A program made the translations under genes and the position numbers. DNA of 64,000 nucleotides from Desulfacinum sp. GTDB lineage: Bacteria > Desulfobacterota > Syntrophobacteria > Syntrophobacterales > DSM-9756. Each line of letters opens with the position of its first letter. The stretch's first letter is position 1. The notes beneath the pieces are model-generated. The model was not told the DNA's origin. It saw only the letters and a program-made list of their open reading frames with translations, and did not search any database. The stretch is from NCBI GenBank assembly GCA_014359885.1, contig JACIYN010000019.1, positions 1 to 64,000 of the forward strand, given 5' to 3'. This document shows positions 10,696 through 13,934 of this stretch, in pieces.

Positions 10696-12660
10696 TTAAT
10701 GGCGTGGAGAATCGGTTCCCGCCGTCCTCCAGAATTCCCTGGCGTGGTCTTCCGCCAGGATGCGCCGGTCGTCGAGACGTATCGTAACCCCCAAGGCATC
10801 CAGATGTTCCAGGACCGCGAGGGCCCGGGTCCGGCCGTATCCCAGAGCCCTCGGACAGTCGCTCAAGCGCAGGGCTCCCTGGGTCCGGATCCAGGATCGC
10901 ACCCGCTGTTCCGTCTCAGCGAGGGCCTCCCGGGTGATGTACCGGCCGTCCTGGAGTCGGACCAGACGTTTCTGGGCAGCCAGATGGTCGAGGATTCGTT
11001 GAACCTCGGAGGGATCGAAACGTCCCTGGGTGTGGTCGCAGACGGTTCCGGCCGCGAAGCTGCTCAGCCCCGCCCGGCGGGCGAAGTGGAAAACGGCGTC
11101 CAGGATCTCTTTCTGGCGGGCCGTCCACTGACGTTTTCGTTGAGGCAGCCGGTAACCGCCTTCGTCATGATCCATGATTCCCCGGTGGCACAGATCCGCC
11201 AACAGCTGGCGTGTCCATTCGGGGTCCAGCTTCATGTCGACGCGGGCGCGCAGTTCTTCGGCGGAAGCGCACTCTTTCAAGGGGTTGGAGGAAAGGATGT
11301 CCACAAGGGCGTCGTGGAACTTGCGGCGTAGATTCCCATGGTCCCTTTTCCGCACGTAACGTCCGTCCTCAAGGACCACCAGCCGGTTTTCCTGCGACCA
11401 TCTCTGCAACACGCGCGACACGTCCCGCCGGCGGAAACCGCAGGCCAAGGCTGCTTGGGTTTCGGAAAGGGGGGTGTACGGCGAACGTGAAAAAAGGTGG
11501 TCGATGGCTCCCTCCAAATCGCCCCGTTGTAAACAGTGGAGATAGGGGAGAATCCGTCCGGCCTTGGATGTGCGGAGTTTTTCCCGGGTTGGTTCCAGGA
11601 TGCGGCCTCCGCCGGCAATGGCATAGTCGTCCAGGAAGCTCAGCACAAAGCGGTCGCCAGCCAGGCAGCCGATGGTCTCTTCCAGCCGGATCTGGGCGAT
11701 CGCTTCCTCGCCGGGTGCAAGCAAGGCCCTGTCGAGAAAATGAACCCGGCCCTGGACACAGGCCGTTCCCACATGGACGCGCACCCTTTGTTGATGGGAA
11801 AGCTTGCGCGGCGCGTGGCGCAACAACCGGACGTCCGCATTCAAATACGGGGCGGCCTCCACCGTGCCGGGCTGGGCCAGGAGCATCCCCGGACCAACCT
11901 CGCCCGTGCCCACGTGGTAAAGATTCACTCCCACCCGTTGTCCCGCCGCGGCCTCCTTCACCTTCCGGTGATGCACCTCCAGGGATCGCACTCGAGTGAG
12001 TCTGCCCGAGGGCAGGATCGCCAGGGGGTCGTTTTCCCTCAATACCCCGCTGAGAAGAGTGCCGCTGATGACCGTACCGTGACCCACCACGTTGCGAACC
12101 CGGTCGATCCATAGCCGGCAGGGACGGGCCTTGTCCCCCCCGTCGAGCCTCGACGCCATGCGCTCCAGCTCGTGGAGGATGAGGGGGGTGCCCCGCCCGT
12201 CCAGGGCCGAGAAGGGCACGATAGGACAATTCTGCAGAAAAGAGGCTTCCGTCAGATCTTCGATTTCAAGGCGGGCGTACTCCAGGGTCTCCTCATCCAC
12301 CCGATCCGCCTTGGAAAGGACTATCATTCCGGTGCGCGCGCCCAGCAGTTGCAGGATGTCCAAGTGGTCGCGGGTTTGGGCCATGACTCCGTCGTCGGCA
12401 GCCACCACGAGCACGGCCCCTTCCACGGCGCTCAGCCCCCGGACCGCGTTGCGCAGATAGTCCTTGTGTCCCGGCACATCCACGAGCGAAACGAGCCGGC
12501 CGGAGGCAAGACGCAGTGGGGCCACGCCGGGCTCTATGGTCAATCCGCGCCTTTTTTCCTCGGGCGTGCGGTCCGTGTCAATGCCTGTGAGCCGGCGCAC
12601 CAGGCTTGTCTTGCCGTGGTCCACGTGGCCGGCGATGCCGATGGTAACAGTCTTGATCAT
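10696..12660 (-). CDS. selB: Selenocysteine-specific elongation factor SelB
   Basis: A 654-residue translation factor that delivers Sec-tRNA(Sec) to UGA codons next to SECIS elements. The GTPase domain opens with IGIAGHVDHGKTS, then RRGLTIE and the DVPGHKDY box, then NKXD-like LSKADR. Beta-barrel domains follow, and a long C-terminus (from about residue 370) of winged helices for SECIS binding. The internal ATG at 12660 is preferred because GGAGGTGG lies eight bases upstream. An in-frame ATG at 12678 and a longer open frame to 12801 also exist. It is the last gene of the unit running from the SelC-like tRNA. Confidence 0.93.
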   Translation of the reverse strand: MIKTVTIGIAGHVDHGKTSLVRRLTGIDTDRTPEEKRRGLTIEPGVAPLRLASGRLVSLVDVPGHKDYLRNAVRGLSAVEGAVLVVAADDGVMAQTRDHLDILQLLGARTGMIVLSKADRVDEETLEYARLEIEDLTEASFLQNCPIVPFSALDGRGTPLILHELERMASRLDGGDKARPCRLWIDRVRNVVGHGTVISGTLLSGVLRENDPLAILPSGRLTRVRSLEVHHRKVKEAAAGQRVGVNLYHVGTGEVGPGMLLAQPGTVEAAPYLNADVRLLRHAPRKLSHQQRVRVHVGTACVQGRVHFLDRALLAPGEEAIAQIRLEETIGCLAGDRFVLSFLDDYAIAGGGRILEPTREKLRTSKAGRILPYLHCLQRGDLEGAIDHLFSRSPYTPLSETQAALACGFRRRDVSRVLQRWSQENRLVVLEDGRYVRKRDHGNLRRKFHDALVDILSSNPLKECASAEELRARVDMKLDPEWTRQLLADLCHRGIMDHDEGGYRLPQRKRQWTARQKEILDAVFHFARRAGLSSFAAGTVCDHTQGRFDPSEVQRILDHLAAQKRLVRLQDGRYITREALAETEQRVRSWIRTQGALRLSDCPRALGYGRTRALAVLEHLDALGVTIRLDDRRILAEDHAREFWRTAGTDSPRH

Positions 12661-13270: not shown

Positions 13271-13789
13271 TCACCGAACGGGCGAACAGCCGTTTCGATC
13301 CCGGTGCCGTCGGCCCGTCACACCCGTCGGTTCCCGGGGCGGGAAGATCGGCCCTAGGGTCCTGATGCGTTGGGTCATTTCGGAAAAACAGCGTGCCAGT
13401 TGGGGACCCATGGAGGCCGCGTTGTGAACCATGGCGATCCGCTCCGGGCTCACACCGATTTCCTTTAGGATGGCACGGGCCCGTTCCACCCGCTTGGCCG
13501 CCTTCCGGTTGCCGTCCACATAATGGCATTGACCGGGAAGACAGCCGGAGACCAGAACTCCGTCCACCCCGGCTTCCAGCGCCGCCAAAAGATGGCCCAC
13601 ATCCATGCGCCCCGTGCAAGGCACCAGGACAATCCGCACGTTGGCCGGGTAACTCACGCGCAGGGCCCCGGCCATGTCCGCCGCCGCATAGGAACACCAT
13701 TGGCAACAGAAGCAGACCACGAGAGGCTCGAACCTTCGCGGGGCCCTCTGTTCATCCGAACTTTCTGAAGAGCGTCGCCATGAGCCCAA
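13271..13789 (-). CDS. MvhD/FrhD-family hydrogenase iron-sulfur (delta) subunit
   Basis: About 172 residues. The core matches methyl-viologen-reducing hydrogenase delta subunits: CFCCQWCSYAAADMAG, then VPCTGRMD and SGCLPGQCHY, with cysteines for a [2Fe-2S] cluster. These subunits carry electrons between hydrogenase or formate dehydrogenase and heterodisulfide reductase HdrA. No in-frame ATG precedes the core; the best start is TTG at 13789 with GGAGG five bases upstream, or GTG at 13795. The gene lies about 50 bp after the SelC-like tRNA on the same strand. A charged tail (PTGVTGRRHRDR) ends the protein. No hdrA lies next to it, which is unusual. Confidence 0.78.
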   Translation of the reverse strand: MGSWRRSSESSDEQRAPRRFEPLVVCFCCQWCSYAAADMAGALRVSYPANVRIVLVPCTGRMDVGHLLAALEAGVDGVLVSGCLPGQCHYVDGNRKAAKRVERARAILKEIGVSPERIAMVHNAASMGPQLARCFSEMTQRIRTLGPIFPPREPTGVTGRRHRDRNGCSPVR

Positions 13790-13842
13790 GGACACCTCCC
13801 CCGGAGTTCCATTCACGGACGTCGGCCCGATCGGCGTGGGAA

Positions 13843-13934
13843 TGGAGGGGGCAAGGGGAATCGAACCTCCTCCCGGCTGGTGAGGCCGGGCCGACGGGTT
13901 TGCAGCCCGTGGGGCGCCCAGCGCCGTTGCCCCC
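13843..13934 (-). tRNA. SelC-like tRNA with GCA (Cys) anticodon, 8/4 form
   Basis: A 92-nt tRNA with encoded CCA. The acceptor stem is 8 bp (GGGGGCAA with TTGCCCCC) and the discriminator base is U73. The anticodon stem is ACGGG/CCCGT around the loop CTGCAAA, giving anticodon GCA (13901-13903). The long variable arm has the stem CCCGGC/GCCGGG. The T loop is TTCGATT on a 4-bp stem, GG(A)GG with CCCC, containing one bulged A. The D arm is compact (GGCGC TGG GCGCC). The extended acceptor and long variable arm are SelC features, whereas GCA and U73 are cysteine identity elements. Deltaproteobacterial tRNA-Cys species that mimic tRNA-Sec with an 8/4 fold have been reported. It is upstream of mvhD-like and selB on the same strand. 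Confidence 0.88.

Follow-up and report, generated by a model that had tools for sequence, protein, structure and literature searches.

A SelC-like tRNA with cysteine identity elements and a paired SelB gene in a Desulfacinum genome

The minus strand of a 64,000-nucleotide stretch of Desulfacinum DNA (the window) encodes, at positions 13843-13934, a genuine tRNA that is confirmed as SelC-like with a Cys anticodon and U73. It is a further selC* tRNA-Cys, a kind already published, since it shows every feature that PMC7609411 lists for that kind; it is accompanied by a gene for a second SelB (SelB*) and occurs in a genome with a complete ordinary Sec system. The pair probably inserts Cys: the tRNA would be charged by CysRS, delivered by SelB* and used at a codon marked by a hairpin, with UGA as the likeliest. 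The tRNA class, the gene arrangement and the proposed use of Cys for Sec at UGA are already published. The features of the window are as follows.

13843..13934, minus strand: selC* tRNA-Cys(GCA), identified by ARAGORN, Rfam RF01852, our own covariance model and pair counts over 71 relatives
13271..13816, minus strand: mvhD-like gene (FlpD / MvhD delta subunit), Pfam FlpD 159.9 bits
12578..13243, minus strand: ORF2, family unassigned, its 3' end overlapping the selB* start
10696..12660, minus strand: selB* (second SelB elongation factor), TIGR00475 290.9 bits with a cut-off of 242.25

The only tRNA called by ARAGORN in the window is this one, as tRNA-Cys(gca), and the Rfam tRNA-Sec family matches it over its full length (54.9 bits, E = 2.3e-8) and above the gathering score of 47, so that the covariance check proposed in the earlier note came out in favour of a tRNA. 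Each of the two names is half right. By direct reading the acceptor stem has 8 pairs (strands GGGGGCAA / TTGCCCCC) and the T arm, GG-A-GG TTCGATT CCCC, comprises 4 G-C pairs and one bulged A (51a), the acceptor branch being 12 pairs plus the bulge (8/4). The D stem is of 5 bp with a 3-nt loop, the anticodon stem is long with the loop CTGCAAA and the anticodon GCA, the variable arm is long (6 bp), the discriminator is U73 and CCA is encoded in the gene. The 8-bp acceptor and the long variable arm constitute a tRNA-Sec-like body, and free RNA folding reproduces all helices but the last acceptor pair. The anatomy described in the earlier note (8-bp acceptor, long variable arm, encoded CCA, GCA, U73 and a four-pair T stem with bulged A) is thus borne out by direct reading, ARAGORN and Rfam. 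Our own covariance model, built from seven selC* copies, scores the tRNA at 117 bits, the window copy being among its seed sequences.

The host genome (4.3 Mb, 119 contigs, the window being contig C31) is that of a close relative of Desulfacinum infernum, the genus Desulfacinum being placed in the Syntrophobacterales. Two strains of that genus, D. hydrothermale DSM 13146 and D. infernum DSM 9756, carry the same cluster as the window. A separate tRNA-Sec with UCA anticodon, which the earlier note had proposed to look for, was found at C13:109891-109985 with G73, an 8/5 branch and a score of 74.5 bits. The genome also encodes SelA, a canonical SelB with 35% identity to the SelB* of the window, an ordinary tRNA-Cys of 75 nt (C98:44700-44774) and one full-length CysRS above cut-off. 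The selC* gene therefore coexists with a complete ordinary Sec system (tRNA-Sec, SelA and canonical SelB). A 799-residue open frame at C28:47738-49123 (L228 1501-2886, minus strand) is cysteine synthase-like in its first part. Its second part scores 242 bits against CysRS, where the cut-off is 340, and inspection by eye showed neither a HIGH nor a KMSKS motif; the protein may be a fusion whose CysRS-like domain is inactive.

The order on the minus strand, going downstream, is selC*, mvhD, ORF2 and selB*, the last being the selB gene that had been reported near the tRNA. Its product contains GTPase, D2, beta-barrel and winged-helix domains and likely starts at the ATG at 12660, the open frame reaching 12801. 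The start codon of the mvhD-like gene is uncertain (GTG at 13816 or later); its product scores 127.7 bits with the VhuD model, under the curated cut-off, and it contains the motif CFCCQWCSY, in which the position homologous to Sec is encoded by a Cys codon and not by UGA according to the codon table. ORF2 gave no match in Pfam or NCBIfam; out of 56 genomes of the class, 50 contain homologs, which form part of a class-wide paralog family. Several genomes have a second ORF2 copy, located in the host genome at C40:46457-46954. Co-transcription of the four genes may be proposed from spacing and overlap alone, since a simple scan of the region, a weak kind of test, found no sigma-70-type promoter. 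This order is limited to the family of the window and one genome of a neighbouring family (G030).

When 395 genomes sampled from the phylum were searched with the covariance model, 39 strong matches appeared in 38 genomes (about 10%), the sample including MAGs of varying completeness. The selC* loci score at least 82.9 bits and everything else, including canonical tRNA-Sec genes, at most 64. Among the 39 copies the anticodon is GCA in 27 and UCA in 12, and position 73 is U in 37 and A in 2. The 4-bp T stem with bulged A is present in most of them and was there not imposed by the search. A tRNA-Sec-family match is found in 343 of the 395 genomes (87%), and for this reason the co-occurrence of selC* with the Sec system is uninformative on function. 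No canonical tRNA-Sec was seen in 16 of 49 named selC* genomes; a selC* without a Sec system, a setting in which UGA targets would be conspicuous, was nevertheless rejected for these, missing contigs being the likely reason, as nearly all 16 have SelA.

A pattern scan of named genomes identified 71 stretches (65 distinct), all scoring as selC*-class tRNAs except one at 64.7 bits. Here UCA is the more frequent anticodon (49, with GCA in 22), and CCA is encoded in 61. The pattern demanded A or T at position 73 and a fixed T arm, so the frequency of G73 or of other T arms is not readable from these loci. Over the 71 relatives 98.2% of the cells are paired, 14 pairs show double-sided changes (7.8 in shuffles, with 0 of 500 shuffles as high) and the covariation is 0.292 versus 0.127 in shuffles, which backs the helices of the acceptor, the anticodon and the variable arm. 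The T stem shows no variation, being conserved by sequence and also imposed by the pattern, and its pairs and bulge are for that reason outside the covariation support.

Several variants were identified along the way. Three relatives have A73 with UCA (L053 10861-10952, L093 7991-8082 and L170 3400-3491) and have thereby lost the main Cys identity base; the SelB* proteins of L053 and L093 are sisters in the tree described below. In five genomes of one genus the copies combine GCA and U73 with a T stem of the full 5 bp (GTGGG/CCCAC, 8/5 branch): L111 8046-8138, L112 8049-8141, L113 2607-2699, L114 155-247 and L116 8030-8122. No selB match was found near these five in the examined stretch, which extends at least 7 kb downstream in three of them and only about 0.5 kb in L113. 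The Eth-SRB1 record RPGP01000040 contains two selC* copies about 2.3 kb apart (L180 251-342 and L205 5925-6016), both adjoined by selB*-like sequence. The scan also reached one Thermodesulfovibrionales record and a few labelled Actinomycetota; in L164, L201 and L209 (labelled Actinobacteria, Actinomycetota and Candidatus Subteraquimicrobium) the GCA form adjoins selB-like genes, binning errors being possible.

A decoding role is in keeping with the partner gene: in 28 of the 39 survey loci the start of a selB-like gene lies no more than about 1.4 kb downstream of selC*, and in most of these the gene directly follows selC*, the family of the window and G030 being those where mvhD and ORF2 intervene. 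From these features we infer a route in which CysRS would recognise U73 and the GCA anticodon and attach Cys. The tRNA would then be steered to SelB*, and not to EF-Tu, by its long acceptor stem and Sec-like fold, and SelB*, which keeps the winged-helix mRNA-binding end, would carry the charged tRNA to a codon that precedes a hairpin, UGA being the likeliest. Sec would thereby be replaced by Cys, for example under selenium shortage; the charging, the binding, the codon, the target genes and the condition are all deduced. PMC9437257 reports that selC* inserts Cys at the UGA codons for Sec, with selenium scarcity as the presumed occasion for its use. Charging with Cys fits the CysRS genes located directly downstream of selB* in several loci with UCA and A1:U72, which match the CysRS profile minus its last ~80 positions. 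No CysRS gene was identified beside the selB* of the window. As for the codon, the UCA anticodon of other lineages would pair with UGA, and its share of the loci (12 of 39 in the survey, 49 of 71 in the pattern scan) fits UGA; the GCA of the window, however, pairs better with UGC and UGU and would read UGA by a third-position mismatch.

SelB* is also where a different reading finds its support, namely a separate recoding channel in which SelB* recognises mRNA hairpins of a class distinct from the SECIS of selenoproteins and places Cys at UGC/UGU or UGA codons of dedicated genes. In a maximum-likelihood tree of 27 SelB* and 29 other SelB proteins (sequences delimited by BLAST matches and open frames, the label canonical resting on separate location and the tree), SelB* forms one group, split from the canonical proteins by a single branch with 100/100 support, and the two well-separated kinds coexist in the same genomes. 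Two differences are fixed between the 27 and the 29: R in place of A at residue 121 of the window protein and N in place of D at 321. In the last winged helix Ser656 and Lys658 are invariant in the canonical SelBs and mostly Gly and Thr in SelB*, a change in the RNA-binding end by which SelB* may read other hairpins than SelB. The residues D180, R181 and R236, which we take to be the Sec pocket of E. coli SelB (E. coli numbering, placed via alignment to chain 5lzb), are invariant in the 29 canonical proteins; Arg181 is replaced by Q, H or G in 12 of the 27 SelB*, with D180 and R236 kept. The functional effect of these changes is predicted from the sequences. Against a separate channel, the SelB* of the window retains all three pocket residues, and the search for in-frame UGA near selC* loci gave no target.

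Among the genes close to selC* loci, that search for UGA aligned with Cys gave nothing believable, only antisense selB shadow frames and other noise, and the mvhD of the window contains no in-frame UGA. The best candidate was mvhD itself: at the Sec-homologous position, all 8 copies linked to selC* use the Cys codon TGT, whereas 3 copies without that link use TGC. It was rejected as a target because the genes are close kin, the position was picked post hoc and there is no hairpin signal, the 42 nt after this codon having no excess of structure (z between -1.8 and 0.8); moreover, one linked copy belongs to a UCA tRNA, which cannot read UGU. The earlier note had also drawn a link to hydrogenase/Hdr proteins, and this was not supported: in addition to the restricted placement of mvhD and its want of in-frame UGA or unusual hairpin, the mvhD-ORF2 pair is found also without selC*. 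A hydrogenase link of selC* is therefore weak. With the evidence on both sides, the separate channel is possible but rather unlikely, and delivery of Cys to a hairpin-marked codon, most likely UGA, is preferred.

Two other explanations fare much worse. The first is a tRNA-Sec with altered anticodon that inserts Sec at the Cys codons UGC/UGU; such tRNA-Sec variants exist (PMC8124441), and the fold and Rfam score here are Sec-like. It was rejected on the U73 (not G73) of the window and of nearly all survey copies, the other two having A73, and on the separate canonical tRNA-Sec of the genome; the 12-pair acceptor branch, where 13 would be expected, and the CysRS genes adjoining several relatives also speak against it, making it very improbable. 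A decayed or regulatory tRNA-like RNA without decoding role, in whose favour stands the empty promoter scan, is hardly credible in view of how strongly 65 distinct sequences are conserved and covary, the encoded CCA in most copies and the linkage of selB* in most loci.

The survey makes testable which codons and mRNAs are used by the native selC*/SelB* pair, on the basis that SelB* stands apart as a group, with changes that are fixed in the RNA-binding end and frequent in the Sec pocket. The named D. infernum and D. hydrothermale strains are deposited at the DSM and contain the same cluster. Should the separate channel be true, selC*/SelB* would no longer count as a spare for the Sec system: it would be a second kind of hairpin-guided decoding, with an mRNA signal and target genes of its own and a dedicated elongation factor that inserts Cys at chosen codons.

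Among known systems, the closest is the selC*/SelB* pair described by Mukai et al. in 2017 and covered by the review PMC7609411. That review describes a tRNA-Cys whose body is Sec-like, whose modified 8/4 fold leaves the A at 51a unpaired and which has U73 and GCA or UCA, a second selB downstream of selC* in Syntrophobacterales and Desulfobacterales, and a CysRS gene (cysS*) beside selB* in the Desulfobacterales. The window agrees with it in the 8/4 fold, the A bulge at 51a, the long variable arm, U73, GCA, the second selB downstream and the additional presence of canonical selC and selB; the membership in the extra deltaproteobacterial tRNA-Cys suggested by the earlier note is accordingly upheld feature by feature. 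The window differs from the arrangement given there in having mvhD and ORF2 between selC* and selB* and in its lack of an adjoining cysS*, as reported also outside the Desulfobacterales. The canonical bacterial tRNA-Sec shares with the window tRNA the 8-bp acceptor, the long variable arm and the best Rfam family; that of the same genome has G73, UCA and an 8/5 branch of 13 pairs, whereas the window tRNA has U73, GCA and a bulged 8/4 branch of 12. The ordinary tRNA-Cys has a 7/5 branch and a short variable region, in contrast to the 8/4 branch and long variable arm found here. Finally, a non-canonical tRNA-Cys, called tRNA-ReC, reportedly recodes Sec UGA with Cys through SelB (Vargas-Rodriguez et al. 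2018, cited in PMC8124441). It is said to share with the window tRNA the Cys identity elements, the tRNA-Sec-like body and the GCA anticodon; the former is reportedly clostridial, whereas the latter belongs to a thermodesulfobacterial pair with its own SelB*, known here from sequence.
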